A stretch of 46,726 nt of DNA from an uncultured Oscillospiraceae bacterium (GTDB taxonomy: Bacteria > Bacillota > Clostridia > Oscillospirales > Oscillospiraceae): contig CANROC010000020.1 of NCBI GenBank assembly GCA_947632175.1, forward strand, positions 1 through 46,726, read 5' to 3'. The notes under the pieces were generated by a model. It saw nothing but the letters and a program-made list of their open reading frames with translations. It was not told where the DNA came from and made no database searches. This document shows, in pieces, positions 26,068-46,726 of this stretch. Position 1 is the stretch's first letter. The number at the start of each line of letters is the position of its first letter. The position numbers and the translations under genes were made by a program.

Positions 26068-26078
26068 TTGGGCGGGGG

Positions 26079-27464: not shown

Positions 27465-27496
27465 GATAGGAAGTCCACCTTTGGAGTTTTTTTATG

Positions 27497-27524
27497 ATTG
27501 TACCACGCGCAAAGAGAAATGCAA
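27497..27524 (-). promoter_or_regulatory. Promoter of the MATE gene
   Basis: Minus strand TTGCAT (27524-27519), 16-base spacer, TACAAT (27502-27497) with TGG before the -10. Confidence 0.6.
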
Positions 27525-27537
27525 GTGGCCGGTTGAC

Positions 27538-27562
27538 CAAAGAAAGCCGCGTGCGCGGTGGT
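27538..27562 (-). terminator. Terminator of the histidine phosphatase gene
   Basis: Minus strand ACCGCG-CA-CGCGG stem followed by CTTTCTTT, a few bases past the stop. Confidence 0.55.
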
Positions 27563-27569
27563 TTTTCCG

Positions 27570-28298
27570 TCAGTCGTGGCGGGTGTCGTCGGTGAAGCAC
27601 TCGCAGAAGCGGGCGGAGAAGGAGGGGGTTTGGCCGGCGGCCAGGATATGGCTCACGTCCCCGTAGCTCCAGACCCGGAAGGAGGCCGTGCCCTCCCGGC
27701 GCTCCTCGGTGAGGACGGTGGTGACGGAGGACGGGGCGGCGCACAGGCCGTGCCAGAGGACCATGGGCGAGACGCGCAGGAGATGGCCGAGCAGGACGCA
27801 TCCCACGCCGAAGTGGCAGAAGAGCGCCAGCGTGTCGTGGTTGGGCCGCGCCGCCCGGTAGAGGTGCCCCTCCCGGACGTAGCCGTGGGCGGCGAGGAGG
27901 CCGTCCAGGCCGGCGCAGACGCGGTCGTACTCGGCCTTCACGTTCCCCTCGACCATCACCGGGTGCTCAAACCAGCGGCCGGCGTCGTATAAAAGCGGAT
28001 CGTTCAGCCAATCCGCCGGGAGCCAGTCCCAGCAGATGTGCCGCTGCTCCTTGTCGTCGGGCCGCCGGATGGGGGCCTGGAACTCCCGCAGCCAGTCCAG
28101 CGTCTCCGCCTCCCGGCCCAGCGCCTTCAGCGTCAGGGACGCGGTGTCCCGGGCCCGGCCCAGCGGGGAGGTGTAGATATCGTCCAGCGTCTCCCGCTCC
28201 AGCCGCCGCGCCAGCAGCTCCGCCTCCCGCCAGCCGGTCTCGGTGAGGCTGTCGCGCTCGTAGTCGGGGTCCGCGTGGCGGATGAGTAGTATCCTCAT
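27570..28298 (-). CDS. Histidine phosphatase family protein (phosphoglycerate mutase-like)
   Basis: 242 residues. The phosphohistidine motif is ILLIRHADPDYE (4-15), with RHA in place of the usual RHG. Later family residues include SPLGRARDTA (about 44-53) and the second His in CHFGVGC. Such proteins remove phosphate from metabolites or proteins; the substrate is unknown. GGAGGT precedes the ATG. Own promoter and terminator. Confidence 0.88.
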   Translation of the reverse strand: MRILLIRHADPDYERDSLTETGWREAELLARRLERETLDDIYTSPLGRARDTASLTLKALGREAETLDWLREFQAPIRRPDDKEQRHICWDWLPADWLNDPLLYDAGRWFEHPVMVEGNVKAEYDRVCAGLDGLLAAHGYVREGHLYRAARPNHDTLALFCHFGVGCVLLGHLLRVSPMVLWHGLCAAPSSVTTVLTEERREGTASFRVWSYGDVSHILAAGQTPSFSARFCECFTDDTRHD

Positions 28299-28326
28299 AG
28301 CTTACCTCCGTCAGTGGTTTTGCCCC

Positions 28327-28355
28327 ATTCTACCCCTCCGCTCCGGGAAATGCAA
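28327..28355 (-). promoter_or_regulatory. Promoter of the histidine phosphatase gene
   Basis: Minus strand TTGCAT (28355-28350), 17-base spacer, TAGAAT (28332-28327). Confidence 0.65.
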
Positions 28356-28383
28356 GACCGGCGTGGGGGGAAAGGCGGGATTT

Positions 28384-30267: not shown

Positions 30268-30269
30268 CT

Positions 30270-32078: not shown

Positions 32079-32098
32079 GTTGTCTCACCTCGCGGGGT

Positions 32099-32127
32099 AT
32101 CGTATCACAAAAATTCGCCCCCGGAGC
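32099..32127 (-). promoter_or_regulatory. Weak, probably activator-dependent promoter of the ABC exporter operon
   Basis: Minus strand TACGAT (32104-32099) is an acceptable -10, but the -35 position (32127-32122, CTCCGG) does not match consensus. Repeated elements lie immediately upstream, as for promoters that need an activator. Confidence 0.45.
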
Positions 32128-32132
32128 GTTCT

Positions 32133-32167
32133 GGGGACGAATCGCGTTTTTCGGGGGACGAATCGCG
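32133..32167 (-). promoter_or_regulatory. Direct repeat with 21-base period, candidate LytTR operator
   Basis: Two exact copies of GGGGACGAATCGCG at 32133-32146 and 32154-32167 (plus-strand reading), start-to-start 21 bases, two helical turns. A partial inverted copy, ATTCGCCCCC, is at 32113-32122. The LytTR-family regulator gene is about 700 bases away, and LytTR proteins bind paired direct repeats of about this spacing. Assignment is inference. Confidence 0.55.
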
Positions 32168-32172
32168 GGATT

Positions 32173-32835
32173 TTACGTCTGCGGGAGCAAAATTTCCGTG
32201 GTGAACGCCCCGTCCTCGCTGTTGCGGCTCAGGTACCCGCCCAGGCGCTCCACAATGGCGTCGATGCGCACGAGGCCGAAGCCGTGGCCCTCGCCCTTGG
32301 TGGTGCGGAAAAGCCCTCCCTCCTTTTTCATCTTCTTCCCGGCGGTGAAGTTGGTAAAGGAGATGTAGAGCTGGGTGTTTTTCATGTCCATGTAGACCCG
32401 GATGAGGCGTTGATCCTCCGGCAGAGCCGCGCTGGCCTCGATGGCGTTGTCGAAGAGGTTGCCGATGATACAGCAAAGGTCGATCTCCGAGGATTTGAGC
32501 CGGACGGGGATCTGCGCGTCCGCCGCCACGGTGATGCCCTTGGATTTGGCCAGGGAGATCTTGGAGTTGAGGATGGCGTCGGCCATGGGGTTGCCGGTCT
32601 TGATCACCGTGTCCACGGTGGTCAGGTCCTGGTCGAGAAGGTCCAGATACCGCCGGATGGCGTCCCAGTCCTCCGCGGCGGCGTAGGCCTTCATGGTCTG
32701 GATGTGGTTGCGGTAATCGTGCCGCCAGCCCCGGATCTGGCGGTACATGTTGTCCACCTCCCGGTAGTGCGTCTCGATGAGCTCCCGCTGATAGGCGGCG
32801 AGGCGCGCGTCGATCCTTTTTGACAGAAGTCCCAT
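32173..32835 (-). CDS. GHKL sensor kinase core (AgrC-like) without a membrane domain
   Basis: 220 residues. Phosphoacceptor region WRHDYRNHIQ with His39, N-box NLFDNAIEA (127-135) and G-box GEGHGFGLVRI (about 187-197). Unlike AgrC, which has about six helices ahead of this core, the protein starts directly with a coiled-coil-like segment (LAAYQRELIETHYREVDNMY). The ATG with GAGGTGAAC upstream follows the regulator stop by four bases, so the short form seems real. The signal must come through another protein, perhaps the exporter. Confidence 0.88.
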   Translation of the reverse strand: MGLLSKRIDARLAAYQRELIETHYREVDNMYRQIRGWRHDYRNHIQTMKAYAAAEDWDAIRRYLDLLDQDLTTVDTVIKTGNPMADAILNSKISLAKSKGITVAADAQIPVRLKSSEIDLCCIIGNLFDNAIEASAALPEDQRLIRVYMDMKNTQLYISFTNFTAGKKMKKEGGLFRTTKGEGHGFGLVRIDAIVERLGGYLSRNSEDGAFTTEILLPQT

Positions 32836-32839
32836 ATGT

Positions 32840-33538
32840 TCACCTCATCCGGATGATGGCCCGGTTCACGCCGTCATAGGCGCCCCGCGGCAGGGGGAGG
32901 ACGGTCCCGTCGGCAAGCCGTATCTCCGTCCTGGAAACGCGGCTCACCTGCGTCAGATTGACGAGCACGGACCGCCCCACCCGGTAAAACCGCTCGTCCA
33001 GCTGCTCCTCAAGCCGGCCCAGCGTCATCTTGACGGTGTAGTCCTGAAGGGCGTGGACGGTCACGTAGTTGCCGAACACCTCGGCGTACCGGATCCGGTG
33101 GACCGGCACCCGGACCGTCTCGCCGCCCGGCTCCAGCGTGAGGACCTTTTCGTTTTTCGCAAGCCTCTCCGCCGCCCAATCCAGCACGGCGTGGAGCTTT
33201 TCCTCCCGCACCGGCTTCATGAGATAGTGGAGCGCCGCCACGTCGTAGCCCTCGGCGATGTAGTCGGAATAGCCGGTGACGAAGACGATCTGGACGGTGT
33301 CGTTTTCCCGGCGCAGGCGCTTGGCCATGGTCACGCCGTCCATGCCGCCCATTTCGATGTCCAGGAGCACGATGTCGTAGTCCTTTTTTTCGGCGTAGGC
33401 AAACAGGAAGCTCTCCGCGGAGGCGAACTCCTCGAGCCGCACGCCACATCCCGCCGCCTGCGCCCACCGCCGCGCCATGCCGCCGATGCTCCGCCGGTCC
33501 ACGTCCGAATCGTCGCAGACCGCTATGGTGTACTCCAT
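32840..33538 (-). CDS. LytTR-family response regulator
   Basis: 232 residues from ATG 33538. Receiver domain about 1-120 with acidic pair CDDSD and phospho-Asp60 in YDIVLLDIEMGGMDG; LytTR DNA-binding domain about 130-230, with VGRSVLVNLTQVSRVSR. Ribosome binding is weak (GAGAGG). Paired with the downstream kinase. It may control the exporter through the 21-base repeats. Confidence 0.92.
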   Translation of the reverse strand: MEYTIAVCDDSDVDRRSIGGMARRWAQAAGCGVRLEEFASAESFLFAYAEKKDYDIVLLDIEMGGMDGVTMAKRLRRENDTVQIVFVTGYSDYIAEGYDVAALHYLMKPVREEKLHAVLDWAAERLAKNEKVLTLEPGGETVRVPVHRIRYAEVFGNYVTVHALQDYTVKMTLGRLEEQLDERFYRVGRSVLVNLTQVSRVSRTEIRLADGTVLPLPRGAYDGVNRAIIRMR

Positions 33539-33577
33539 CCTCTCACCGCCGTTCCTTGAGTTTTTGGGCCTGTCAGG

Positions 33578-33606
33578 ATTATACCACACCGCCGCAAAGT
33601 TTTCCA
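33578..33606 (-). promoter_or_regulatory. Promoter of the regulator-kinase genes
   Basis: Minus strand TATAAT (33583-33578) with an extended TGTGG; the -35 at 17 bases is weak (TGGAAA). It is back-to-back with the tRNA promoter. Confidence 0.55.
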
Positions 33607-33651
33607 CAACCATTTTGGGACGGGTTTTTTGAGAAAATCAAAAAATAGTTG

Positions 33652-33680
33652 TTGACAAACCGGGTCAGTTTTGTTATCAT
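33652..33680 (+). promoter_or_regulatory. Promoter of the tRNA-Thr/tRNA-Tyr transcript
   Basis: TTGACA (33652-33657), 17-base spacer, TATCAT (33675-33680). Confidence 0.85.
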
Positions 33681-33703
33681 ATCTCTTGCTGATGTGCCGG
33701 AAC

Positions 33704-33779
33704 GCTGGTGTAGCTCAGCTGGTAGAGCAGCTGATTTGTAATCAGCAGGTCGGGGGTTCGAATCCGTCCACCAGCTCCA
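33704..33779 (+). tRNA. tRNA-Thr (anticodon TGT)
   Basis: 76 bases. Acceptor GCTGGTG pairs with CACCAGC; D-arm GTAGCTCAGCTGGTAGAGC; anticodon stem CTGA/TCAG around TTTGTAA; T-arm GGTTCGAATCC; encoded CCA end. Decodes ACA. Confidence 0.97.
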
Positions 33780-33791
33780 AAAACTGAATAT

Positions 33792-33876
33792 GGAGGAGTT
33801 CCCGAGTGGCCAAAGGGGACAGACTGTAAATCTGCTGGCGATGCCTTCGGTGGTTCGAATCCACCCTCCTCCACCA
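33792..33876 (+). tRNA. tRNA-Tyr (anticodon GTA)
   Basis: 85 bases, class II with a long variable arm as expected for bacterial tRNA-Tyr. Acceptor GGAGGAG pairs with CTCCTCC; anticodon stem CAGA/TCTG around CTGTAAA; T-arm GGTTCGAATCC; CCA encoded. It is the tRNA nearest to the integrase gene. Confidence 0.97.
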
Positions 33877-33877
33877 C

Positions 33878-33913
33878 AAAAGCCTCGATTTTGAGAACAA
33901 AATCGAGGCTTTT
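33878..33913 (+). terminator. Terminator of the tRNA transcript
   Basis: AAAAGCCTCGATTTT pairs with AAAATCGAGGCTTTT around GAGAAC, and TGTTATTTC follows. The stem has flanking A and T runs, so it can act on either strand. Confidence 0.9.
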
Positions 33914-34043
33914 GTTATTTCTGGTAATCGCGGGATGGGGGCTGTACCCATCCGAATCGTCTATGTCCGGTTTTCACCGTTTCCCCGCTCTGACCCACTT
34001 CTGACCCCAACGGGATTTCGGAGCGGAAAAGACGGGATAGCAC

Positions 34044-34078
34044 AAGGCCGTGGGATTTGGCGTCCCACGGCCTTTTTT
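34044..34078 (-). terminator. Terminator of the integrase gene (possibly bidirectional)
   Basis: AAGGCCGTGGGA pairs with TCCCACGGCCTT around a 7-base loop; TTTT follows on the plus strand and a shorter flank on the minus strand. It lies 24 bases beyond the integrase stop. Confidence 0.75.
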
Positions 34079-34101
34079 AGTTATGGCTGTGTAGTTTTTG
34101 C

Positions 34102-35250
34102 TCATACGTTTGCCCCAATCAGCTTGCCCATGGTGGCGGCAGCTTCCTCCTGCATCTTTGTGGTGACGTGGGTGTAGGTGCGGAGGGTGAAACCAGCGTC
34201 ATAGTGGCCCAGGATGGAGGACACCGTTTTAACGTCCACACCGTTTTGGAGAGCCAGAGTGGCGAAGGTGTGGCGGAGATCGTGCAGACGGATGTGCGGG
34301 AGGCCGGCGGACTTGAGGATTTTGTTGTGAATGGCGGTTACGGAGTCGGGGTAGTACATGCCGAGGGTGACTGGAGAGGGGAACATATATTCGATTTCCG
34401 GGTGCTTGGCGTGTTCCTTTTTGAGAATGTCCACCGTTTCCTGCGATAGAGATATTCTGCGGATGGAGGTTTCGGTTTTCGGTCGGGTAACTTTAACCCC
34501 TCCGCCCTTGACCCTGACGGCCTGTTTGCAGACGTTCAGGGTCATTGACTGTTCATCGAGGTCGCTCCACAGTAGGGCAACAAGTTCACCTTTGCGGAGT
34601 CCGGTGGTCAACTCCAGAAAGAACATCGCCAGCACACCTCGCCGGTCTGCTTCTCTGAGGTAGGCGCTGATGTCCTCCGGGTGGAGAATGTGCATCTCCT
34701 TCTTCTCTAATTTGGGGACTATGCAGTCCTCCGTAGGATTCCGCAGGATCAATCGCTCCTTCACAGCTCGTCCAAGGCAGTTGTGTAGCATCATGTGGAG
34801 GCCCCGGACGTAGCTTGCGCTCATGCCGGTGTCGCCGTCTGCCTTTTTCCTGATCCGACCCTTCGCCTTAACGTCGTTATACATCTTCTGTATGTCCCGT
34901 CCTGTTAGCTTCGCAAGTTTGATGCCGCCGATACGAGGCACTACGTGATGTTCGATGTAGTCCTCGTAAAATTCCTGCGTGCTTTCTCTGATGTGCGGTT
35001 TGGAATATGCCTCGTACCACGTCCGTACCCAACCGCCAACCGTGTATTCCTCAGCCTTCTCGATGTCAATCTCGGCGCATTCCCGGATCGCTTTCTTCAG
35101 CTTCTCCTTAACCTCCGCCTGGGTCCTGCCGAGGACGTTCTTCCGGATAGCCTTCCCGTTCTCGTCGCGGCCAGCGACATACCGACCTTCCCACCTCCCA
35201 TCCGGCCTTTTTCGTATATTCCCCTCGCCGTTGGCTCTGCGTTTGCTCAT
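34102..35250 (-). CDS. int: Tyrosine recombinase/integrase of an integrative element
   Basis: 382 residues from ATG 35250, with AAAGGAG nine bases upstream. An arm-binding/AP2-like N-terminus (about 10-55), a SAM-like core-binding domain (about 70-165), then the catalytic domain with Arg219 (TTGLRKGEL), Lys258 (PKTE), His323-x-x-Arg326 (LHDLRHTFAT), His349 (LGH) and Tyr359 (RTYTHV). All six catalytic positions are present, so it should be active. It resembles Tn916/phage-type integrases. No excisionase, replication or conjugation gene is seen in the window. It sits beside tRNA-Tyr, a common attachment site. Confidence 0.93.
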   Translation of the reverse strand: MSKRRANGEGNIRKRPDGRWEGRYVAGRDENGKAIRKNVLGRTQAEVKEKLKKAIRECAEIDIEKAEEYTVGGWVRTWYEAYSKPHIRESTQEFYEDYIEHHVVPRIGGIKLAKLTGRDIQKMYNDVKAKGRIRKKADGDTGMSASYVRGLHMMLHNCLGRAVKERLILRNPTEDCIVPKLEKKEMHILHPEDISAYLREADRRGVLAMFFLELTTGLRKGELVALLWSDLDEQSMTLNVCKQAVRVKGGGVKVTRPKTETSIRRISLSQETVDILKKEHAKHPEIEYMFPSPVTLGMYYPDSVTAIHNKILKSAGLPHIRLHDLRHTFATLALQNGVDVKTVSSILGHYDAGFTLRTYTHVTTKMQEEAAATMGKLIGANV

Positions 35251-35494
35251 GCTGCATGTCTCCTTTCCACCGTTTTTCGGCAAACACACAACATACCAGC
35301 TTTGCGGCGAAATAGCCAGAGCAAAAATGTGTACAAACGGATAACTTTTTACGGGTCCACTTCACGACGGCGGAAAACGCCTTGGAAACACGGGCGTTTC
35401 CGCCACTTCCGACTGCGGGAATAGCATAGCCCGGTCAAAACCGACTGCGCTTCTCGACCCCGGAAAAGCCCCGCACTGCGGGGCTTTGTGGCCG

Positions 35495-35524
35495 AGCCGC
35501 CGTCGCGCACGACGGCGGCTCTTT
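35495..35524 (+). terminator. Terminator-like hairpin upstream of the foreign segment
   Basis: An 11-bp perfect GC stem with CGCA loop followed by CTTTATCTT. A second GC hairpin lies just before it. No plus-strand gene precedes it within the window except the tRNAs. Confidence 0.5.
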
Positions 35525-35638
35525 ATCTTGTTCAATAATCGAACAGCCTTTTTTCCTCGAAAAAGGGCTGGAAATAAGCTTCGGCGTTGCCCTCCCGAAG
35601 CTGGAGATTATGTGCAGAGAGGAAAATTCTTTTTGCCC

Positions 35639-35723
35639 ACAAACGCGCAACACAGCCTTTTACTGCACGGAGGTGTATGTTTATTACCCTCTGCCATAAA
35701 AGCGCACACGGGGGCGACAACGG
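35639..35723 (+). repeat. Left copy of an imperfect direct repeat flanking the foreign segment
   Basis: It begins ACAAACGCGCAACA and ends with a 39-base core (35685-35723) containing CGCACACGGGGG and ACAACGG. The core matches 44215-44254 at 33 of 39 positions by eye, with one gap, in the same orientation. Confidence 0.55.
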
Positions 35724-35817
35724 CTTTACGGTCGCCTTGCTGGATCGTGTCCTGTCCATCCTTTGATGGGTCATTATATTTTCCACGGGACAGGGAAGGC
35801 GCGGTGCTGCGGGGTCG

Positions 35818-36081
35818 ATGTTTGAGGCAGAAGATGATATAATTAGATTTACTATAGATTTGCCGAAATACGTAAAAAGGGACGGGAAATTTATTGTGGC
35901 TACACTGAGCGATTCCGTTACGGTAAGGTCCTTTGGCGTGGTGTCATGCAATTCCCGCGGGAACAGAAGGACACCATATGAGCACCAGAAAAAGGCCATG
36001 GAATATCTGGACAAGATAGACCGTGAGCCGGATTACAGCACATTGGTGGTCCTCCCTACAGGCGGCGGATTCGTTCATTAA
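35818..36081 (+). pseudogene. N-terminal fragment of a superfamily II (DEAD/DEAH) helicase
   Basis: 87 residues. TPYEHQKKAMEYLDKI (about 52-67) matches the region ahead of motif I in SF2 helicases and type III restriction-type ATPases, and STLVVLPTGGG leads into Walker A. The next residues should be GKT but read FVH and then a stop, so the protein breaks off within motif I and cannot bind ATP. No helicase motifs follow in other frames. It looks like the remnant of a gene removed when the downstream operon was inserted or rearranged. Confidence 0.7.
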
Positions 36082-36755
36082 ATATTGTATGATTTTTCTC
36101 CCCGGGTCTTTCTTCAAGGGGGCATATGGATAGAACTGATCTGCGGCGGCAATCAGAACTATATGAAGATGAAGTATTGCACTCTACTGAATACAGTATG
36201 GCTCCCAAACGCGTTCTCTGCGTCTTATGGATAATAATATTTACTGTCTGCCCTTCTACTATCTACAGTCTTATTTTAAGGGAGAGAAAAATGCAGTCTT
36301 TGCGATCTTGACATTGATACCATGATTATATCTATGGAAGCGTAACTGCGGTCTCGCGACACTGCTCACAGAGGAGGTCTATACTTGTCGTTCTTCGTCT
36401 TATTTATAAAATCCCCGCAATTATTGGGAATCTCCCACCAGTTTCTCTGACATCAATATTGTTTGTTTTCGCTAAAAACTTTTCTCATTAGTACATTAGT
36501 AGTCATCATGGCTCCATCTTGCTTTGGGCGCGGTCTTTTCCTTTTTCAAGATCGGCCAAAGTGAAAAACGTCAAAAAATTTTGAAAATATGTAACAAATC
36601 CAAGAGTATAACACATATAAAAGTAGAGGTTATATAAAATGCTCTAAAATTGATCGACCGACGAATGCTTTGACAGGCAACTTGTTCAATTGGTCCCTGT
36701 TAAAACCGCGCCAAAGCCACGGCGCTTTAAAAAGAGAGAAAGGGTGCAAAATTAA
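36082..36755. other. AT-rich intergenic stretch with decayed coding traces
   Basis: No intact gene. Plus-strand frames give protein-like pieces without starts (for example ELICGGNQNYMKMKYCTLL near 36135-36190, then YYLQSYFKGEKNAVFAI in another frame near 36260-36310), which suggests frameshifted remains. Possible promoter pieces for the downstream operon include TTGACA at 36670-36675 and several TATAAA/TATAAC boxes at 36606-36645, but no pair has standard spacing. A GCGCC/GGCGC stem (36708-36725) precedes the ribosome binding site. Confidence 0.5.
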
Positions 36756-38630
36756 ATGAGCTTTTATAATTTCTTAGCAAAAGCAGATCGGAACGATTCA
36801 AAAGAAGTTTTCTCGGCATATGGTATTAAGAATTGGGATAATTGGAATTATTCAAAGAACAATCTGATCGTAGGAGAAAACGGTGCGGGGAAATCACGCA
36901 TTTTAAAAGCCGTGAGAGAAATATGCCGTAAAAGTGAAATCCCCTGCATATACATGGACTTTACGCAGATATCGGGGGATTACTCAAAAAAGGATTCTGC
37001 CAGTAGAAACGCGAGCATTTTATCGTCACCTCTTTTGTTTCACGGAGCTGTTGAACAGGATATATACTTTGACTTTATTCCGCGCATAGAGGAAGACACG
37101 GAAATTTTTTCGTCAAAACTCATGGAAATGAAGAAAAACTTTTCAACATATCCGGTAGCAAAAAAGCGGTTTGAAAAAGTCAATGATATATTAAATCATT
37201 ACCTGAGTCGTTCATTCGACCTTGATACCGACCCGGAGAAATGTCTTTTGACCTGCAGAGAAGCGGATCGGCCGCCGATTTGCGTAGAAGAATGCCTTGC
37301 TGAAATGTCGCCCGGTGAAAGATGTATCCTTTATTTCTCTCTGGGGATGATGTGTTTTAGATCCGATGAGGAAATGAACGGCGAATATGTGCTTTTGCTG
37401 GATGAGCCGGAAAACCATGTTCACCCCAGGATACTGCGAGCATTCATCAGGGACATCAAAAAAGCGCTGCCCGATGTGTGTAAGATGATGATCGCGACAC
37501 ACTCCGTTTTTCTTGTGCCCGCGTTTAAATTCGAGGAGATCATCCATGTCCAGAACGGTGCGATATCCCGGGCGACCGGGTCACTCTATCCGAAGCTTTA
37601 CGGTGAACTTGTCGGTGAAGATTCATCTGATGATCAGGAAAATCTCCACACCTTCTTTGCTTCCCTGGACTCCTGGGGGTACGCCGAATATCTGGCTGAA
37701 TGCCTGGCGGAAGAACCCACCGTCCGCGACGACCCGAATGACAAAGATCTACAATTTCAAAAGATGAACGCGGTATTCTGGCCGTCGGTAGAAAAATGGC
37801 GCGAAAACAACACCCCATTACATATTTTGGACTATGGCGGCGGGAGAGGGCGAATCGCCAAATGTCTTGAGTTGTATTTGAAGAATAACAATATTTCTTT
37901 GGACAACAAGTTAATATATGATGTGTATGACCCAACCCCCCACCCGGAAGAAATGCCGAAAGCGGCTTGGATGGGGCAATATTATAAAGAAATCGGTAAT
38001 CTATCCGAAAGTAAATATGACTTCATTCTTCTCATGAACGTACTCCATGAAATTGACGTAACGGAATGGGCCGACTCGTTAAATGGGATCCTATGCCTCG
38101 CAAAAGAAACCGGAACCATTATTTTCGGTGAACGGGCCGTTCTGAGCCGGGGTGAACGTCCGTTTGGTAAAAGCGGATATCTTGTTTTAGATGAAAATGA
38201 GCTGAAATGTCTATTTGGTAACGACGCCGTAACGGAAATAACGGTTTTTCGTGAGGGAAAGGATCCGACTATCAGTTATTCCATAACGGTAAGCAAAGCC
38301 CATAAGGTCGAGCAGTCCCATGTTAAAAAAGCTGTAGCGGCTCTTTATGGGCGTATGTCATTCCAGGTGAACAAGTATATCAATCGTGCCGTTAAAACGC
38401 CGAATGGCAGAAATTACGCTTTTTTCTGTCAGGGCAAAATAAATGCTGAGCACGCGCTAAGGCTCCTGAACAGCGCGCTGTCACTCGCGAAATATCCAAA
38501 AGAGACTCTGAACGGCCTCATAAACGAATACTCCGGCGAAGAATTGGTAAAAAGAATCACCGAGCGCGCAAAATATGATGATGAAGAGGGCAAGAAGTGC
38601 GCGAACTGGCTTGCCAATCTTAAAGGATGA
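36756..38630 (+). CDS. AAA/ABC-type ATPase fused to a class I methyltransferase fold
   Basis: 624 residues; AGAGAGAAAGGG precedes the ATG. Residues 1-290 form an SMC/ABC-like ATPase: Walker A GENGAGKS (40-47), signature MSPGER (184-189), Walker B YVLLLDEPE (211-219), switch His249 in ATHS. It resembles AAA15/AAA21 and OLD-type ATPases but no TOPRIM nuclease follows. Residues 350-515 look like a Rossmann methyltransferase: ILDYGGGRGR (357-366) as SAM motif I, acidic YDVYDP (388-393), NVLHEI (428-433), and a GTIIFGER strand. The last 110 residues are unrecognised helices. First gene of the four-gene operon; 19 bases before the next. By analogy with other defence ATPases it may sense infection, with the methyltransferase-like half acting on an unknown target. 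Confidence 0.8.
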   Translation: MSFYNFLAKADRNDSKEVFSAYGIKNWDNWNYSKNNLIVGENGAGKSRILKAVREICRKSEIPCIYMDFTQISGDYSKKDSASRNASILSSPLLFHGAVEQDIYFDFIPRIEEDTEIFSSKLMEMKKNFSTYPVAKKRFEKVNDILNHYLSRSFDLDTDPEKCLLTCREADRPPICVEECLAEMSPGERCILYFSLGMMCFRSDEEMNGEYVLLLDEPENHVHPRILRAFIRDIKKALPDVCKMMIATHSVFLVPAFKFEEIIHVQNGAISRATGSLYPKLYGELVGEDSSDDQENLHTFFASLDSWGYAEYLAECLAEEPTVRDDPNDKDLQFQKMNAVFWPSVEKWRENNTPLHILDYGGGRGRIAKCLELYLKNNNISLDNKLIYDVYDPTPHPEEMPKAAWMGQYYKEIGNLSESKYDFILLMNVLHEIDVTEWADSLNGILCLAKETGTIIFGERAVLSRGERPFGKSGYLVLDENELKCLFGNDAVTEITVFREGKDPTISYSITVSKAHKVEQSHVKKAVAALYGRMSFQVNKYINRAVKTPNGRNYAFFCQGKINAEHALRLLNSALSLAKYPKETLNGLINEYSGEELVKRITERAKYDDEEGKKCANWLANLKG

Positions 38631-38649
38631 AGTCTGGAGTGAATGAACT

Positions 38650-41442
38650 ATGCAGCGTTTTAAATTTGACCCGGCAGTAAAGAACAGGGAGATTACCCTG
38701 GAAACAGGCCATGCGGCGCTGGATAAGCTTTCTGAATACATATGCCTCGAGCACACGAAGGGAAAGATACCGCTTATCATAGCCGGCGCCGGCATTTCCG
38801 CCGCAAACCTGAGAAAGACCGAGAGGACATCAGACGGGCCTCAAGAGATCCTTTTTGAAGGCGGGCTACCCTGCTTGGGCAGAATGATAAAAAAAATATC
38901 AGAGCTCGTTTTAACGGCGGCGGAAGAGGCGGGCCCCCCTGACAAAGAGCTGAAAAAGCTGGAGGACCTTTTTCAAAGCGCCAATTCAAGCGGCGGGAAG
39001 CTCTTGGATCACATGGATCGGGAATGGTTGGGAAAGGTCTTCTCCGCCCTCTCTGACAGTCCGAGCAAAGCCGTCGCGGGGATATGGGAAAATTTTTGCA
39101 ATTGGTTCTTCTTTGATTGCTGCCAAAGCGGGGAGCATAAAGGCGGCGCCCTTGACATCAGCACCTCTGACAGCGCCAAGGAGATCGCGAAGCTTTACAG
39201 CAAGCTCGACGCCATTTGCCTTTCTGCCAATTTTGACGATTTTATTGAATTTTCCCTGGCCGGAGAAGCTTGCATGGGGCGCGGTATATCCCTGTTTAAT
39301 AAAAAATACATCGATCAATACTTCAGACGTGTGCGGCGTAACCGCGACCGCTTTGATGAGCCGGCGCAGAATCGGTGCGTGCTTCATGCCAACGGCGACG
39401 TTCTTTGGCTGCATTGCAGCGGAGACAAGGATGAGGGGTATTGTCCACAGCGGGGAAAGTATATGCCCGCGTTCGCGAATCGGAAGAAGCTGAGCCGGGA
39501 TGACATCCTGAAATGCCAGATTTGCGGCAGCCGGATGCTCCCTACGATGACCATGCCCGGCACCTATGAAAAGGATCACAATACCAGGCAGATCCTATCG
39601 AGTATCTGGGAGCATATCGCGTCTAAAATATCCTGCGTCATAACGGTAGGATTAAGCTGCAATTGGGATGAAGTGCTTCTAAAATTTATTTTGGAGCTCC
39701 TCATAGAGCGTGATATCCCTCATTTGGATATCAACAATTTTTCAGATCCTGACTTCACCGGTAAGACCGCGCTGTATAAAAGGGTCGTCAGCGAACCTCG
39801 ATTCCAGTCATGTTGCATTTGTGCCGACGCTCAGGAAGGACTTTCCGCGTTAAACGAGGCAATAGACACCAGTCTGCGATCGGCGGCAAACGTGTATGAA
39901 GCGGATTCTGTCGAGGAGCATGGGCTTCCGCCATTCGCGAAAGAGGCACACGAGCTTCTTGAAAATGAAGATGTCATAAAAAGGCTTATGCACGTCTCTC
40001 AGCTGGGGCTCAAAGCCTTAATCGTCAAAGACGCGCAAAAAAATAACCGTTGGACGCACTCAAAGGAGGTGGCAAGTAACGCCTACCGGCTTTATCACCG
40101 GCTTTGTGAGAACAGCGGCAAAAAGGAGACGCAATTCGAGCAGGTCCTTCTTTATATGGCGGGGCTTCTCCACGACTGCGGGCATTTGCCCTTCTCCCAT
40201 CTGTTGGAGGATGTTTTCGAAGAGCTTTCATGGGGATTTTCAAATGGGGAAAAGCCATTCAAGCATGACCAATTCAGCAAATTACTTATCCAAAAAATGT
40301 GTGCCCAAAAGAACAGCGGTCTCAGGTCATTTCTTGAGCGTTATGGGGTCTCTCCGGAAGAAGTCATGCTTCTTATAGAAGGAAATTACGGGGTAGGGTA
40401 TCTTGACGCGCTCATTAACAGCGCGGTCGACGCCGATAAAATCGCGTATATTTTTGTCGATGCCGTACAGATGCAACGAGCGCTTATGCTGGATAAAAAT
40501 GATTTTATTGAGAAGCTTGCCGAGCACGCGTATATTTCGCAGGAGGGAATGATCGCCTTTGACGGTTCGTCCGCCTGGTATTCTCTAAGATTACTTGACG
40601 AGAGGAAACGGATGTACGACGAGCTTTATTTGGACCCGCGCATCAGGTGTATAGAAGCCGCAGCAAAATATATTATCACAACATATTTTGTGCAGAAATT
40701 CAACTCTGTTGATTTTGACACAACGATCGTGCGTTCCTACGGAGAAATGACGCTTTCCGACCTGTGCGCCTACCGGATCCTTATGGCGGTAGACGATATG
40801 ATCAAGATGTCAAAGGAAGACTATTTGCCCACCGATTTATCCTCATCGGTCGGAGAAGTCACCAAGCGTGGGCTGGCGCGCTGCAGGAATATTATTGACA
40901 GCCTGGACGGAGGCGCTGAGGAAACTCTTGAGGAAAAGAAGCTCCTGTTCAGAATGTATTCACAGCTTGTCGGCGACTGGACAGGCGAGGATGAATACGG
41001 CAACGGGGAGTTGACGTCATATCAGGATCCCCAGATCCAGGAAATGGCTTCTCAGTTGACCTATAAGCAGCTTTCGGATGCGCGGAAGAGAATCATACTG
41101 AATTATCCGGGCGTATTGCTTATCGATCTATATATGCCCACTAGGTACTTTGCCACGCCGCTTTCGCGTTATAAGCGTTCCAGGCTGGATGGCACAAACT
41201 GCGCGGAGGATACGATCATGCTTCCCAACAGCCACAGGGAACAGTGGATGAACGAGGACAGTTTAGCGACGATCACGCTTTCCGAGTACGAAAGAACTTA
41301 CGGAATGAAAACTAACAGCGCCCCTGTCTTTCAGGTCTTTCGGATCGGGCAGGATAAAGCGGACTGTGAACACGCGATCAATATGTTAAAAAAGGAACTT
41401 CAAAAAAAGATAGAGACCCGGAATCGGGGTGTAAAAAAGTGA
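38650..41442 (+). CDS. SIR2 domain fused to a SAMHD1/dGTPase-like HD phosphohydrolase
   Basis: 930 residues; GGAGTGA precedes the ATG. SIR2 part, about 36-410: PLIIAGAGIS (41-50), SANFDDFIE (192-200) with Asn194 in the family's TxNxD position, His246 in VLHANGD, four cysteines fit for zinc (256, 265, 289, 292), and TVGLSCNWDE (332-341). HD part, about 440-720: RWTHS (Arg467, His470), AGLLHDCGHLPFSH (His508, Asp509, His512, His517), and DADKIAYIFVD (Asp596, Lys597, Tyr600, Asp604). These match the SAMHD1 set R164, H167, H206, D207, D311, K312, Y315 and D319. Predicted to hydrolyse NAD+ and dNTPs. The stop overlaps the next start. The C-terminal 200 residues are unassigned. Confidence 0.85.
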   Translation: MQRFKFDPAVKNREITLETGHAALDKLSEYICLEHTKGKIPLIIAGAGISAANLRKTERTSDGPQEILFEGGLPCLGRMIKKISELVLTAAEEAGPPDKELKKLEDLFQSANSSGGKLLDHMDREWLGKVFSALSDSPSKAVAGIWENFCNWFFFDCCQSGEHKGGALDISTSDSAKEIAKLYSKLDAICLSANFDDFIEFSLAGEACMGRGISLFNKKYIDQYFRRVRRNRDRFDEPAQNRCVLHANGDVLWLHCSGDKDEGYCPQRGKYMPAFANRKKLSRDDILKCQICGSRMLPTMTMPGTYEKDHNTRQILSSIWEHIASKISCVITVGLSCNWDEVLLKFILELLIERDIPHLDINNFSDPDFTGKTALYKRVVSEPRFQSCCICADAQEGLSALNEAIDTSLRSAANVYEADSVEEHGLPPFAKEAHELLENEDVIKRLMHVSQLGLKALIVKDAQKNNRWTHSKEVASNAYRLYHRLCENSGKKETQFEQVLLYMAGLLHDCGHLPFSHLLEDVFEELSWGFSNGEKPFKHDQFSKLLIQKMCAQKNSGLRSFLERYGVSPEEVMLLIEGNYGVGYLDALINSAVDADKIAYIFVDAVQMQRALMLDKNDFIEKLAEHAYISQEGMIAFDGSSAWYSLRLLDERKRMYDELYLDPRIRCIEAAAKYIITTYFVQKFNSVDFDTTIVRSYGEMTLSDLCAYRILMAVDDMIKMSKEDYLPTDLSSSVGEVTKRGLARCRNIIDSLDGGAEETLEEKKLLFRMYSQLVGDWTGEDEYGNGELTSYQDPQIQEMASQLTYKQLSDARKRIILNYPGVLLIDLYMPTRYFATPLSRYKRSRLDGTNCAEDTIMLPNSHREQWMNEDSLATITLSEYERTYGMKTNSAPVFQVFRIGQDKADCEHAINMLKKELQKKIETRNRGVKK

Positions 41443-42233
41443 CTGAACGACTTTTTGGGATTTCCTATGCTTTTTCTGAAATGCCGGAAACGAAAGATAT
41501 TTCAGAAAAAGGATACGTTGAGTATTCTCCAATTGTAGTTTGCTATGAGCAAGAAACCGATTCCCTGATTAAACTGCAATATCCGAAACCTTTTCGCGCT
41601 TATTCAAAAAACATGGAGCTGTATCCCGGCCACCAAGGGTATTATCGTAATCTTCATTCTACAGCCAGAGAGAATCAGGAGCGGCTTGTGGCCGATTATA
41701 TCTGCGCGCTGATCCTGAATAAGCTCAGAAGCAATCCAGATGATCACTGCGTCTTTATTATAAAAGACGCTTTTGAATCCGAGAAATTCGTGGGCCGTTT
41801 AGGATATTTGGGGCTGCCGTTGGAGAGAGTGACGCTTTACTTTGTATCACGGGATTTAAAAGATATGCTCACAAATTATATGTCCCCCTACTCGCTGGAC
41901 GGGCGCAACGATTTGACTGTGTTGCAAAAATATGGTCAAATGATCCATGGTCCGTTTTCGGAAGACGAAGAAATCACGATGCTCTACACATTTTATTGCA
42001 CCTTTGAGCACCGCGATCTATATCCGCTGAGAGTTAATCTCTTTGCCCAGTATATGGGAAGGACGGCACTCGACCACTGCAAAAAAGAAATGGAAAAATA
42101 TTTTTTTATGCCTGGCATGACCGCGGTGTGCAATATCGAGGGCGGAAGAGATTCCGAAAAAACCCGGATACCGATCGTTCTTATGCGATGCGAGGAATAT
42201 GTGGACCAGTTAAAGAAAAAGGCGGTAAAATAA
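41439..42233 (+). CDS. Unrecognised 264-residue protein of the defence operon
   Basis: The start is a GTG overlapping the upstream stop (GTGA). No family is recognised. The sequence alternates predicted strands and helices: DHCVFIIKD (about 102-110) and VTLYFVSRD (about 130-138) look like core strands of an alpha/beta fold. There is no signal peptide or membrane segment. In many archaea HerA is paired with the NurA nuclease, and this gene holds the equivalent position, but NurA catalytic motifs were not found by eye. It may be an adaptor for the HerA protein, a sensor or a nuclease. Confidence 0.7.
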   Translation: MTERLFGISYAFSEMPETKDISEKGYVEYSPIVVCYEQETDSLIKLQYPKPFRAYSKNMELYPGHQGYYRNLHSTARENQERLVADYICALILNKLRSNPDDHCVFIIKDAFESEKFVGRLGYLGLPLERVTLYFVSRDLKDMLTNYMSPYSLDGRNDLTVLQKYGQMIHGPFSEDEEITMLYTFYCTFEHRDLYPLRVNLFAQYMGRTALDHCKKEMEKYFFMPGMTAVCNIEGGRDSEKTRIPIVLMRCEEYVDQLKKKAVK

Positions 42234-43640
42234 ATGGATAACTATAAAAAAGTGGGAATCGCCGCGTCAGGAAACACACGAGGCGGAATGACGTTTTTTT
42301 CAAAAAGCAGTCCGAGAACTGATTATGTCTTTGTGGACGCCGAAGAAGAGAAAAAAATCGTCTTTGAGGTCATTAACGAGGTCGCCCAGAACAGAAGCCT
42401 TACGGATCCTGACGCAGTCCGTTTCATTGAGGACGGGGACGATTTGACGCGGCAGAACGTATATGTTTCCACCGCGATACCGGTTTCAACGTTAGGCCCC
42501 GGTAATAAGCCATATTACGATCCCTATATGATCGCCGCTCCGGGGTCAACGGTCTATGCCGCGACATCCGAAATGCTGTCTGCGGTTTATTCCATCGCTC
42601 CCGAAGAAGGCCGGGAGAAGATAGGATATATCCTGCATCGGGACGATGTCCCGATCTATCTGGATCTTGACGATATGATCATTTCGCAGTCGCACATGGC
42701 CATCGTAGGGCGCACAGGCTGCGGAAAGAGCTGGTTCACGACCAGGTGGCTTGATAAGCTGAAAATGAAGTATATCGTTTTTTCTCCTACGGACGAATAT
42801 GATAGTCTTTCCGCTCCGCAAGACATATTATCCAGGCAGGATTTTTCTATTCCGTTGTCCCCCAGCGTTATAAACCATGTCGTTGGTTTGACCACAACGG
42901 AATTGAATTGCCTTAAAGAGTTTATTAAAAGAAGCGGTCTAAAAAGCGGAAGCTATTCAGGCGAGAAGCTCAGCCTGCTGATTGAGGATTATTACAGGGC
43001 AACAACCAAAGCGAAAACTCCTCAACTTTCCATGTTGGGAAACTGGTCAGATGAGTTTTATTCCCTGCCCCAGTATGTAATCAGCTTAAGTCGAAAGATT
43101 GCTGACCTTGGCCTGAAAGTATCTGTATCGCCGGAGCAAGATCCTATTATCAGGCAATCAACTGTATTCAATATGCAAGGGTGTAAGAGGGTGGAGGAAG
43201 AGCAACTGATATATAGCGTGCTCCTCCCGATTTTTGAGAGGCGCAAGGCAATATATAAAAGCGAAGAGCGTGATATCCCCATTGACGATCGTATTATTAT
43301 CGTTCTTGAAGAGGCACAGAATTATGCCCCAAGTAACCGCTCCACGCTTTGCAAGGATCTGCTGGTAGACATTGCCCGTGTCGGGCGAAAATATGGCATG
43401 CACATTGTTATGATTAGTCAACGCCCAAGATATATAGATCAAACGATGCTCGCGCAGTGTGGTTGCAGCCTATTTTTTCATCTGCCAAATCCGGAAGATG
43501 TAGAATATGTGATGAGCGCTGCAGCATTAAACAGATCCTCTACTTTCAAGGCCATGATACAAAATTTTGATACCGGCCAGTGTATCCTTGTCAGAGCGGC
43601 AAAATCCGCGTTGGATTTATTATGCAAAATTGACTTCTAA
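42234..43640 (+). CDS. HerA-type hexameric ATPase
   Basis: 468 residues; the ATG abuts the previous stop. An N-terminal beta-rich region (about 1-150, HAS-barrel-like by position), then the RecA-type ATPase: Walker A GRTGCGKS (159-166), Walker B IIIVLEEAQNYAPS (353-366) with catalytic Glu360, an Arg-rich RVGRKYG (382-388) as probable trans-acting finger, and ISQRP (394-398) as sensor. In HerA/FtsK-like enzymes the ring translocates DNA; in antiviral SIR2-HerA pairs it assembles with and controls the effector. Last gene of the operon; no strong terminator follows. Confidence 0.88.
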   Translation: MDNYKKVGIAASGNTRGGMTFFSKSSPRTDYVFVDAEEEKKIVFEVINEVAQNRSLTDPDAVRFIEDGDDLTRQNVYVSTAIPVSTLGPGNKPYYDPYMIAAPGSTVYAATSEMLSAVYSIAPEEGREKIGYILHRDDVPIYLDLDDMIISQSHMAIVGRTGCGKSWFTTRWLDKLKMKYIVFSPTDEYDSLSAPQDILSRQDFSIPLSPSVINHVVGLTTTELNCLKEFIKRSGLKSGSYSGEKLSLLIEDYYRATTKAKTPQLSMLGNWSDEFYSLPQYVISLSRKIADLGLKVSVSPEQDPIIRQSTVFNMQGCKRVEEEQLIYSVLLPIFERRKAIYKSEERDIPIDDRIIIVLEEAQNYAPSNRSTLCKDLLVDIARVGRKYGMHIVMISQRPRYIDQTMLAQCGCSLFFHLPNPEDVEYVMSAAALNRSSTFKAMIQNFDTGQCILVRAAKSALDLLCKIDF

Positions 43641-44270
43641 TTTTTTAGAGTAAATCAACTCACACATAGATAAGGTGATGCAAAACCGCTATACTTTCAG
43701 CAGGCTTCCAGAAAACAATTACGGAAAAATGACGCACATGCGGCGTATTTCTGCGCCTATCCATTCCACATCCGGGCTGGTGTTGGTAAATGGCAAGCCC
43801 CATAAGCATAAGAGAGAATTGCTTTTCAGAGAGCGTGTGGTTACTCATTGAAAACACGGCATTTCTGATTGATATGTCAATAAATATTGCCACATTAACA
43901 ATTTGAATTAATGCTGTTATGCTCGCCGCTTTGCGGTAACCGCAAAACATGGCTACTATTACTCCGTCAGCTTTTTAACTGCCGGAGTAATTAATGCTAT
44001 GCGGGCAAAAAATGAGATATTCGTATCAATATGCGCAAGAATTGATGCTACAGGTATGCAAAAAGCTCTGGAGCAAGTAGGCCTTGTTAGAGAATGCGGG
44101 CAAAAGAGGCAACAAGTCTAATTTTTCTTATTCCATTATGGCTTATGTGAAAAACGGGTTTTTTTGCAAATCAAGGTTACAAATGCGCAACAAGGGCCGT
44201 TTTTTAAAATGTCCTACCCCTTGCCCTAAACCCGCACACGGGGGGCAACAACGGGGCGACAGGGACGGTA
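43641..44270. other. AT-rich end of the foreign segment, no intact gene
   Basis: Contents: a short open frame with AAGGTG site at 43679-43852 (57 residues, ATG CAA AAC start, no family), an inverted repeat TTTGCGGTAACCGCAAA near 43930-43946, an ACTCCG/CGGAGT stem near 43961-43988, a further open frame ending at 44121 whose 3' part could be the end of a lost gene (ATG at 43999, 40 residues), and the right copy of the direct repeat. None of the frames is convincing as a working gene. Confidence 0.5.
44179..44254 (+). repeat. Right copy of the imperfect direct repeat
   Basis: Begins ACAAATGCGCAACA and ends with CGCACACGGGGGGCAACAACGG. Same orientation as 35639-35723 and about 8.5 kb away. GC-rich host sequence resumes right after it. 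Confidence 0.55.
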
Positions 44271-46094
44271 TCATTGAGGGGGATTGCTTGTATAATACTG
44301 CGCCTGGGCGGTCCAGAGGGCGTGGTATTGGCCGGCGGCGTCGGCGAGCAGGTCCTTGTGGCGGCCGGTCTGGACGATTTGGCCGGCGTTAAAGACGGCT
44401 ATCTTGTCGCAAAACCGGCAGGAGGCCAGGCGGTGGGAGATGTAGACGGCGGTCTTGTCGCCGGCGATGGCGTTGAAGCGGCTATAGACCTCATACTCCG
44501 ACACCGGGTCAAGGGCGGCGGTGGGCTCGTCCAGGATGATGAAGGGCGCGCCCTTGTAGAGAGCCCGGGCCAGGGCGATCTTCTGCGCCTCGCCGCCGGA
44601 GATCTCCACGCCGTCCTTGTCGAAGTCCTTGTAAAGCGGCGTGTCCAGGCCCTTCGGCATGGCGCTCTCCCGCCCGTCGAACCCCGCGCGCTTCAGGCAT
44701 TCGTCCGCGCGCCCCCGGTCAAACTCCGTGCTGGCCGCCACGTTCTGCCCGAGAGACACGGCGAAGAGCCGGAAGTCCTGGAACACCACGGAGAAGAGGG
44801 ACATGTACTCGTCATAGTCGTATTTGCGGATGTCCACGCCGTTTAATAAAATCTCTCCCTCCGTGGGGTCGTAGAGGCGGGTGAGGAGCTTGATAAACGT
44901 GGTCTTCCCCGACCCGTTCATGCCCACGATGGCCAGCTTCTCCCCGACCTTGAACTTGAAGTTGACATGCCGCAACGCCCAGGCGTCCGCGTGGGGATAT
45001 TTGAAGGACACGTCCCGGAACTCCACGTAGTACTCGTTATCGTCCCGCTTCTCCACGGTGAGGGTGCCCTTGTACATGTCGTTGGGGATGTCGAACCAGG
45101 AGAAGTAGCGCTTTAGATACGTGTCGTTGAGAAGCGTCATCTGCACGAAGCTCACAAGCTCGGTGACGGCGGAGATGAGCAGGGTGACGCAGGACACGTA
45201 CTGGGCGATGGAGCCCACGGACACTCCGCCCCGGAGGGAGGCAAAGATCAGGATCATATAAACGCCGAACCGGAGGCCGTAATCGAATACCTTCCCCACG
45301 GAATTGAGGAGGCTTGCGGGGATGTCCGTCCGGGCGAGCGCCCGGCTAAACTCGTCTCCGAACCGGAGAGACCGCGCCGCCAAGTCCTCCGCCATGCCAT
45401 AGAGCCGGATGTCCTTGCCGTTGGTATACCCGCTTATAAAGAACCCCAGCTTTTCGCTGCGGATATTGGTATCCACCAGCCGGTCGAAAAAGACCTTCAT
45501 GATCCGCTCGCTCCGCGACTTCAGGAGCATACCGGCCAGCAGGGTCAGAAGAACGCCGCCCACCAGGGCCAGCTTCATCCACAGGGGGATGGTTTTCACG
45601 CCGAAAAAGGACGCGGTGAGGGTGATGCTGGCGGCGATTTGCGCGGTAAGGAGGATGAGCGCAGCCGTGCCGTCTTTCAGATACCAGTAGTTGTAGCCCG
45701 TCTGGGTCTCCTTTCGGATCCGCTCCCGCAAAAGGGCCGTGTCCCGGTCCTCCACGCTTTTGTAGGCCATGTCCATGGTCTTCTCCGCGTAGCGCCACTC
45801 CAGATTTTGGCTGAGCTCCTTGTCACCCACCGATTCCCTCTCCCGGAACCAGGCGACCAGAAGGCCCAGCAAAAATGTGAGCCCCACCGTGAGGGCGGCG
45901 TACAGCGCCAAAGCTCCCACGGGCCGTCCCGCGGCGATGGCGTCGATGAGCCGCGCCGAAAACCAGATGGGCACGTAGGGCGTCACGGCGGAGACAAGGG
46001 CCTCCAGCATGAAAAGCACGGTGTACGCGGGGCTCATCTCATACAGCAGTCGAATGCCGCGTCCAAAAACGCGGATATGTTCCGAAAGCTTCAT
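44271..46094 (-). CDS. ABC exporter half-transporter, permease plus ATPase
   Basis: 607 residues. Six-helix domain about 20-330; ATPase with Walker A GMNGSGKTT, signature ISGGEAQK, Walker B FIILDEPTAALD and switch His in YISHRLASC. The C-terminus TAQAQYYTSNPPQ and the ATPase half are close by eye to the exporter ending at 28384, so the pairs are paralogues. The start overlaps the preceding gene's stop by four bases, making a heterodimeric exporter with the partial gene to the right. Substrate unknown. Confidence 0.92.
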   Translation of the reverse strand: MKLSEHIRVFGRGIRLLYEMSPAYTVLFMLEALVSAVTPYVPIWFSARLIDAIAAGRPVGALALYAALTVGLTFLLGLLVAWFRERESVGDKELSQNLEWRYAEKTMDMAYKSVEDRDTALLRERIRKETQTGYNYWYLKDGTAALILLTAQIAASITLTASFFGVKTIPLWMKLALVGGVLLTLLAGMLLKSRSERIMKVFFDRLVDTNIRSEKLGFFISGYTNGKDIRLYGMAEDLAARSLRFGDEFSRALARTDIPASLLNSVGKVFDYGLRFGVYMILIFASLRGGVSVGSIAQYVSCVTLLISAVTELVSFVQMTLLNDTYLKRYFSWFDIPNDMYKGTLTVEKRDDNEYYVEFRDVSFKYPHADAWALRHVNFKFKVGEKLAIVGMNGSGKTTFIKLLTRLYDPTEGEILLNGVDIRKYDYDEYMSLFSVVFQDFRLFAVSLGQNVAASTEFDRGRADECLKRAGFDGRESAMPKGLDTPLYKDFDKDGVEISGGEAQKIALARALYKGAPFIILDEPTAALDPVSEYEVYSRFNAIAGDKTAVYISHRLASCRFCDKIAVFNAGQIVQTGRHKDLLADAAGQYHALWTAQAQYYTSNPPQ

Positions 46095-46726
46095 TCCTCC
46101 GCACCTCCCTTGTAGTCGTCCCTGTACCAGCAGCTTTGGATCTCAAAGAGTTTGCTGTACGCGCCGCCCAGGGCCATCAGCTCGTCGTGGGTGCCTTGCT
46201 CGGCGATTTCCCCGTCCTTTAAGAAGAGTATCCTGTCACAGAATCTGGTGGATGCCAGACGGTGGGAGATGAAGAGGGAGGTCTTGCCCCGCGTCATAGC
46301 GTTGTATTGGAGGTAAATCTGGTTTTCCGCGATGGGGTCCAGGGCCGCCGTGGGCTCGTCCAGCACCAAAATGGGCGCGTCCTTGTAAATGGCCCGTGCC
46401 AGCATGAGCTTCTGCTTCTCCCCGCCGGACAGGTCCGTGCCGTCCTTATCCAGCTGCTTGTCCAGAACCGTATCCATACCCTTTGGCAGGGAGTCGATCT
46501 TATCCCCCAATCCGGCGTCCCGGAGGCACGCCTCCGCCCTCTCCCTGTCGCCGCCGCCGTCCGTCCGGCTGGTGACGGTCTCAAGGATGGTGAAGGGGCC
46601 GGTCCCGGCGTCCTGGAAGACAGGGGCGAAGAGCTTATAATATTCCTCCCGCCGAAAATCCCCCGTGGGTACGCCGTCCAGGCGTATCTCCCCGGAGGCC
46701 GGAGCGTAAAGGCCGCACAGGAGCTT
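46091..46726 (-). CDS. ABC exporter half-transporter, C-terminal part (cut by window edge)
   Basis: The last 211 residues of an ATPase domain; the 5' part lies outside the window. It begins in the residues just after Walker A (KLLCGLYAPASGEIRLDG), then a Q-loop (APVFQDAG), signature LSGGEKQKL, Walker B ILVLDEPTAALD and switch His in FISHRLAST. The pattern pairs with 30270-32078, as the gene at 44271 pairs with 28384. The frame is open to the window end. Confidence 0.9.
   Translation of the reverse strand, partial: KLLCGLYAPASGEIRLDGVPTGDFRREEYYKLFAPVFQDAGTGPFTILETVTSRTDGGGDRERAEACLRDAGLGDKIDSLPKGMDTVLDKQLDKDGTDLSGGEKQKLMLARAIYKDAPILVLDEPTAALDPIAENQIYLQYNAMTRGKTSLFISHRLASTRFCDRILFLKDGEIAEQGTHDELMALGGAYSKLFEIQSCWYRDDYKGGAEE

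Follow-up and report, generated by a model that had tools for sequence, protein, structure and literature searches.

A four-gene HerA operon with a SIR2-like/HD fusion protein in an uncultured Oscillospiraceae bacterium: a candidate anti-phage system

The HerA-based defence systems Nezha (SIR2-HerA) and DUF4297-HerA are gene pairs; a HerA hexamer is reported to associate in each with 12 partner subunits, and this assembly is required for activity (PMC11559045, PMC11291478). DUF4297-HerA reportedly cleaves double-stranded DNA (PMC11291478), and the Vibrio Nezha is reported to lose its immunity with the substitution N168A as well as with H227A (PMC11559045). Clover, composed of the deoxyguanosine triphosphatase (dGTPase) CloA and of CloB, is described as a regulated phage-restricting system (PMC12265719). 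Here we examine a four-gene operon, P1 to P4, on contig CANROC010000020.1 from an uncultured Oscillospiraceae bacterium; the whole stretch analyzed, hereafter the window, is 46,726 nucleotides long. A first-pass annotation of this DNA had proposed that the operon is an anti-phage system starving phages of both nicotinamide adenine dinucleotide (NAD+) and deoxynucleoside triphosphates (dNTPs). Our own reading, tentative and held with somewhat less than even confidence, is that of a horizontally acquired multi-gene HerA anti-phage operon, an orphan so far, with an HD hydrolase as its effector. We favor it because the genes are packed and co-directional, ten residues of the HD domain are shared with all aligned relatives, the HerA protein is clear and SIR2-HerA pairs are frequent among its relatives, the insertion has an empty counterpart, a congener carries defence-type genes at the corresponding locus, and Clover provides a precedent.

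The operon is closest to HerA-based defence but, by the features tested, is not a member of Nezha. Both combine a HerA ATPase and a SIR2-like protein in one operon, and the GAG, NxD and GxS motifs align. However, Nezha is a pair whereas four genes are found here, and the SIR2-like part of P2 is fused to an HD domain and separated from herA by P3, while Nezha-type SIR2 genes lie directly upstream of HerA, a difference that weakens the first-pass reading. In addition, the catalytic His is probably an Asn in P2, which also has extra zinc-ribbon-like cysteines and no significant match to the Nezha SIR2 profile, and P4 is shorter. DUF4297-HerA and HerA-NurA resemble the operon in joining HerA to other genes, but P3 matches neither partner family and two more large genes are present here. 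Like Clover and the dGTPase defence proteins, the operon is a multi-gene unit that includes an HD hydrolase of the SAMHD1/dGTPase type; their catalytic dyad is HE, whereas that of P2 is HD, the HD domain of P2 is fused to a SIR2-like region, and HerA is present here. No nucleotidyltransferase, the partner in Clover, was found for P1, P3 or P4 in Pfam, PADLOC and NCBIfam (for P1, among the matches listed). The ATPase part of P1 contains the best stretches for the PADLOC models of GajA (Gabija), PtuA (Septu) and AriA (PARIS), but in P1 a methyltransferase-like domain follows the ATPase. The usual partners in these systems are GajB, PtuB and AriB, none of which matched P1 to P4 in PADLOC (again among the matches listed for P1). 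Finally, Kongming (KomBC), as described in a review, has its SIR2 protein coupled to a signal that is a deoxynucleotide, deoxyinosine triphosphate (dITP); its nucleotide-handling protein is of the HAM1 type rather than HD, and it has no HerA. The open-licence literature searched, as judged by titles and abstracts, offered no description of this gene set or of a SIR2-HD fusion in defence, in line with the first-pass annotation, to which no described system of this composition was known.

The open reading frame (ORF) limits of the four plus-strand genes and the distances between them (19, -4 and 0 bases) were verified, and so was the AT-richness of the surrounding DNA: the G+C content is 45.8% at 35731-44200, against 62.7% at 20000-35730 and 61.4% from 44270 to the end of the window. 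G+C at third codon positions is 0.48-0.59 in P1 to P4 versus 0.85-0.87 in the flanking ABC-transporter and response-regulator genes. P1 to P4 are thus real, foreign-looking genes. They reside in an approximately 8.5-kb insertion with imperfect direct repeats at both edges (Table 1), as deduced from an empty site with a single repeat copy and from three backbone break points. The empty site (locus L252) belongs to G1189, a genome from the same genus, in which the stretch with the integrase (84% identical to window 33874-35349) adjoins the ABC transporter (44211-46726, 86%), with no operon DNA between them and one copy of the repeat. At three other backbone copies within the genus (L259, L262 and L256, the last a second G1189 locus), similarity to the left side of the window stops at 35700, 35729 and 35731, respectively. 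The horizontal-transfer setting first suggested for the operon is supported. On the other side of the integrase, L252 encodes a 1024-amino-acid (aa) protein (9883-12957) matching PADLOC bSEFIR (E value 1.2e-10) and a 145-aa protein (12954-13391) matching PDC-M50A (E 1.9e-30). The integrase locus may therefore be a hotspot for defence cargo, and these genes give indirect support, from one congener, to a defence role of the operon.

Among the proteins, P4 is solidly assigned as a HerA-type ATPase, as first annotated, by DUF87 (Pfam, E 1.3e-11), PADLOC HerA (E 9.9e-30) and Protein Data Bank (PDB) matches to helicase 9x1l (E 2.5e-21) and HerA 4d2i (E 6.5e-16). Its Walker A and B motifs are at 159 and 356, and its scores with two NCBIfam anti-phage HerA models are far under the cut-offs (72.5 versus 850 and 48.8 versus 800 bits). 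In P2, an HD domain of the SAMHD1 type is likewise solidly predicted at about residues 439-680 (Pfam HD, E 1.3e-6; best PDB match to SAMHD1 chains, E 8.7e-11); the part following it had no match. Residues R467, H470, H508, D509, H512, H517, H539, D594, D596 and D604 are identical in six of six aligned HD relatives, and the metal-binding motif H...HD...D is present (H470, H508/D509, D594, D596); dNTP hydrolysis by P2 is plausible. The description of P1 as an ATPase joined to a methyltransferase fold is also supported, the methyltransferase as likely. Its ATPase (Pfam AAA_15, E 5.4e-12) is, judged by its motifs, a complete ABC-type domain, with Walker A at 40, a signature-like SPGE at about 185, Walker B at 213 and an H-loop at 246; G40, G43, K46, S185, G187, D216, E217 and H249 are invariant among four aligned ATPases. 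The C-terminal domain is likely a class I S-adenosylmethionine (SAM) methyltransferase: at about 350-475, Methyltransf_23 gave E 9.9e-5 with the full-length protein, and E 3.6e-5 and 24.0 bits, below the cut-off of 27, with the C-terminal part.

Table 1. Positions of the operon genes and of the features at the insertion site, in window coordinates
Feature	Position	Strand	Size	Description
P1	36756..38630	+	624 aa	ABC/OLD-type ATPase, followed by a likely class I SAM methyltransferase
P2	38650..41442	+	930 aa	SIR2-like N-terminal region, then SAMHD1/dGTPase-type HD domain
P3	41439..42233	+	264 aa	GTG start; without recognizable relatives; directly upstream of HerA
P4	42234..43640	+	468 aa	Short HerA/FtsK-type ATPase
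Left imperfect direct repeat	35638..35731			35638-35723 aligns to the single G1189 copy
Right imperfect direct repeat	about 44174..44250			Limits by eye from alignment; G1189 backbone similarity restarts at 44211
Tyrosine integrase	34102..35289	-		Phage_integrase (Pfam, E 8.5e-22); outside the insertion

The first-pass annotation had described P2 as a SIR2 protein with a dNTPase-type HD domain, of which the HD half stands and the SIR2 half was not confirmed. The order of motifs and a weak match to the sirtuin profile suggest, weakly, a SIR2-like region at about residues 40-370. GAGIS, NFDD and GLS occur there in SIR2 order, a pattern met by none of 300,000 shuffles and picked after inspection of P2; the sirtuin profile scored above 100 of 100 shuffled sequences with hhalign and above all but 4 of 5000 with HMMER. 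No Pfam SIR2 model matched P2, even at E up to 10, which speaks against the NAD+-cleaving activity first proposed; NCBIfam Sir2 gave a non-significant match (E 0.16, residues 221-257), and with the Nezha SIR2 profile the hhalign probability was 0.2%, a score reached by 40 of 100 shuffles (135 of 5000 with HMMER). The single PF02146 sirtuin found in the genome itself is on another contig (C10) and is not P2. A combined SIR2 and HD alignment was discarded, its SIR2 rows being only 10-14% identical to P2 and its consensus blocks misplaced.

A bifunctional P2, with SIR2 cleaving NAD+, HD hydrolyzing dNTPs and HerA serving as the activating scaffold as in Nezha, would accommodate the motif order, the sirtuin-profile score and the nine residues (G46, A47, G48, N194, D196, E200, G334, S336 and D340) that align with Nezha-type SIR2 proteins, N194 at the position of the catalytic Asn. 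Yet the position of the catalytic His is occupied by Asn248 in three alignments, made with Nezha-type SIR2 proteins (His in 13 of the 13 aligned), with CobB and with the sirtuin profile, and with this register, in the sirtuin-profile alignment, cysteines 256, 265, 289 and 292 are placed as a sirtuin zinc ribbon would have them. A fourth alignment places S257 there instead, so that the assignment is alignment-dependent, and H255, in LHCS, could serve as an alternative catalytic His. The SIR2-like region thus probably lacks the catalytic His and, given Asn248 and the reported need of the Vibrio Nezha for both N168 and H227 (PMC11559045), NAD+ cleavage by P2 is doubtful. Together with the Pfam and Nezha-profile results, this makes the bifunctional reading unlikely, if one to be kept in mind. 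Of the double starvation first envisaged, the dNTP part remains plausible, while the NAD+ part is possible and not favored.

P3 was rightly called unrecognized: searches of Pfam, PADLOC, NCBIfam and PHROGs returned nothing for it at E values of 1 or lower. Its AlphaFold2 single-sequence model is uninformative, with a predicted local distance difference test (pLDDT) score of 42.4, and structure matches of this model, APOBEC-like and other (best E 0.041), were dismissed as meaningless. P3 directly precedes HerA, the slot that SIR2 or NurA occupies in several related loci, and the dsDNA cleavage reported for DUF4297-HerA (PMC11291478) would fit a system in which P3 is an unrecognized nuclease or adaptor working with HerA to destroy DNA, P1 and P2 being regulators. 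We consider this improbable, at a level that still deserves attention, as P3 matches neither NurA nor any family and its fold model is too poor for use. In the NurA comparison, made between the single P3 sequence and four NurA sequences (three Pfam-confirmed, one by its record; an alignment in which one member proved to be a diphthamide-synthesis protein was left out), the hhalign probability was 0.3% and 9 of 100 shuffles scored at least as high, so that P3 as a NurA is unsupported.

The surroundings of HerA in relatives of P4 are varied. A SIR2 gene often lies directly upstream, on plasmids of E. coli, Rhizobium and Pseudoalteromonas, at many viral and genome loci, and in 5 of 10 loci fetched from the phylum (L276, L277, L280, L283 and L284). 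Archaeal relatives have a hypothetical protein or NurA near HerA instead, and the proteins encoded ahead of HerA in Halorussus and Natrinema showed no BLASTP similarity to P3. At L276 (657-10735; G687:C11), a SIR2_2-domain protein just before HerA is placed between ORFs of 1146 and 987 aa, possibly a larger SIR2-HerA system. At L281 (3748-11466; G726:C41), proteins of 1355, 266 and 386 aa without Pfam match precede a 495-aa HerA, after which come an ORF of 228 aa and a protein kinase-TPR gene; this four-gene HerA operon was rejected as a second copy, since only HerA is common to both.

Whether the four genes recur together was examined in small genome samples that overlap between searches, with insensitive scans. 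Matches to P2 were found in 13 of 245 genomes of the class, 29 of 295 of the order and 89 of 398 of the phylum, the own genome counted; the matches listed from other genomes all map to residues 419-734 and reach no further than the HD region. P1 matched in 32 of 398 genomes, outside the own genome always as short stretches of the ATPase part. P3 matched, in 300 genomes, its own genome and G1084 (E 0.0017), the latter rejected as the match sits in an apparent ABC substrate-binding protein (read from its sequence). P4 matched in 41 of 254 genomes at E up to 1e-8, its own included; in 10 of the other 40, the ORFs within 6.5 kb of HerA were inspected and held no relative of P1 to P3 (E up to 1). 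In 203 collected loci (the three of the window excluded), the sole match to P3 was L123, already rejected, and the SIR2 and methyltransferase parts were unmatched at E up to 10. A scan of genome contigs with P2 alone returned 20 pattern matches and no relative; a scan with the HerA alignment returned at least 596 stretches and at least 115 relatives, of which 80 were taken. By tblastn, P2 matched 7 records of plasmids and 9 of phages, never outside residues 436-693, P1 matched 5 plasmid records (residues 38-290) and no phage record, P4 matched 56 plasmid records (5 neighborhoods read) and no phage record, and P3, compared to plasmids only, matched none. Viral scans gave nothing for P1, P2 and P3, 44 loci for the HerA alignment and 15 for the HD alignment. 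The claim that the genes are fixed in the operon finds no support, the set having been found once among the sampled genomes; an absence of the gene set from all other genomes, which the first-pass annotation named as counting against its proposal, is compatible with these results. An 806-aa HD-domain protein with a long C-terminal extension, the HD part of which is related to P2, is encoded on the Desulfosarcina plasmid Do28_1 (L036, 7806-10226) near integrase and transposase genes.

At the insertion site, the first-pass annotation had noted an integrase and a broken helicase. The integrase is real but does not belong to the operon, since it lies outside the insertion and the empty site has it too; no 12-mer that could betray a tRNA-derived att repeat is common to 33690-34120 and 35290-46726. 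The helicase was not confirmed: upstream of the operon lies an 87-aa ORF (35818-36081) ending in a Walker-A-like LPTGGG, which had no Pfam match (E up to 1) and no plasmid tblastn match. The G1189 integrase locus also carries transposase-like genes, and in another congener (L257) genes past the integrase were judged by eye to be relaxase-like. Similar ABC-transporter DNA flanks the tRNA/integrase region of the window (28403-29205 and 44271-46090, 78% identity over 0.8 kb), with weaker further copies elsewhere in the same genome.

As HerA/FtsK ATPases and integrases belong to mobile elements too, P1 to P4 could form a module for mobile-element maintenance or DNA processing rather than defence. 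This is quite unlikely, since they match no relaxase or replication family in scans of Pfam, PADLOC, NCBIfam and PHROGs (which, among the small ORFs of the insertion, covered 35818-36081), their domains are of the kinds found in defence proteins, and the cargo at the corresponding G1189 locus is of the defence type. Very unlikely is a decaying or chimeric locus, non-functional or joined by the assembler, which would agree with two altered catalytic positions in P2 (one alignment-dependent), the draft assembly, the lack of a second copy in the samples and the short upstream ORF, but not with four long ORFs, which adjoin or overlap one another, or with congener backbone at both sides inside one contig.

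Several observations weigh against a HerA anti-phage operon with an HD effector. The catalytic dyad of the P2 HD domain is His539-Asp540, with Glu in six of six aligned relatives; the change is conservative, yet leaves open an altered or lost activity. The dGTPase model TIGR01353 scored 32.2 bits on P2 (best stretch 462-526) for a cut-off of 152.35. P4 is shorter than all five HerA proteins aligned with it, mainly because it lacks stretches in its interior and at its C terminus. The lack of a second copy in the samples means that neither the operon nor its catalytic residues can be shown to be conserved, defence-type cargo was seen in a single congener, and the window is one contig out of the 82 in a draft assembly. 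Promoter-like sites are not in excess within the insertion (15 for 13.7 expected, standard deviation 3.5); terminator-like sites (14 for 9.0 expected, standard deviation 3.3) were not used as evidence.

If the operon is nevertheless a HerA defence system, P4 would form a ring-shaped DNA translocase, with its neighbor P3 as adaptor or partner, and by analogy with Nezha and DUF4297-HerA, P4, P3 and P2 may assemble into a complex. P2 would be the effector: on engagement of the complex, its HD domain would hydrolyze dNTPs or a different nucleotide. Rather than drain NAD+, the divergent SIR2-like half of P2 may contribute to assembly or bind a ligand of the NAD or nucleotide type; P1 would act as a sensor or regulator. 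In a more specific and rather unlikely form of this proposal, P2 would be a dNTPase gated by a pseudosirtuin: a His-less, ligand-binding SIR2-like domain would control the fused SAMHD1-type hydrolase, and the HerA ring, the adaptor and the ATPase-methyltransferase would read a change in NAD/ADP-ribose (adenosine diphosphate ribose) or in phage DNA and trigger nucleotide destruction.

Should that form be true, it would represent a defence architecture for which no description was found in the literature searched. More generally, a four-gene version of HerA defence, with a SIR2-like/HD fusion replacing the plain SIR2 partner, would show the re-use of HerA scaffolds and bring together within a single polypeptide two otherwise separate antiviral strategies, the sensing or depletion of NAD+ and the starvation for dNTPs. 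The empty-site insertion, together with the defence-type cargo of the congener, marks the locus as a place to find more such systems.

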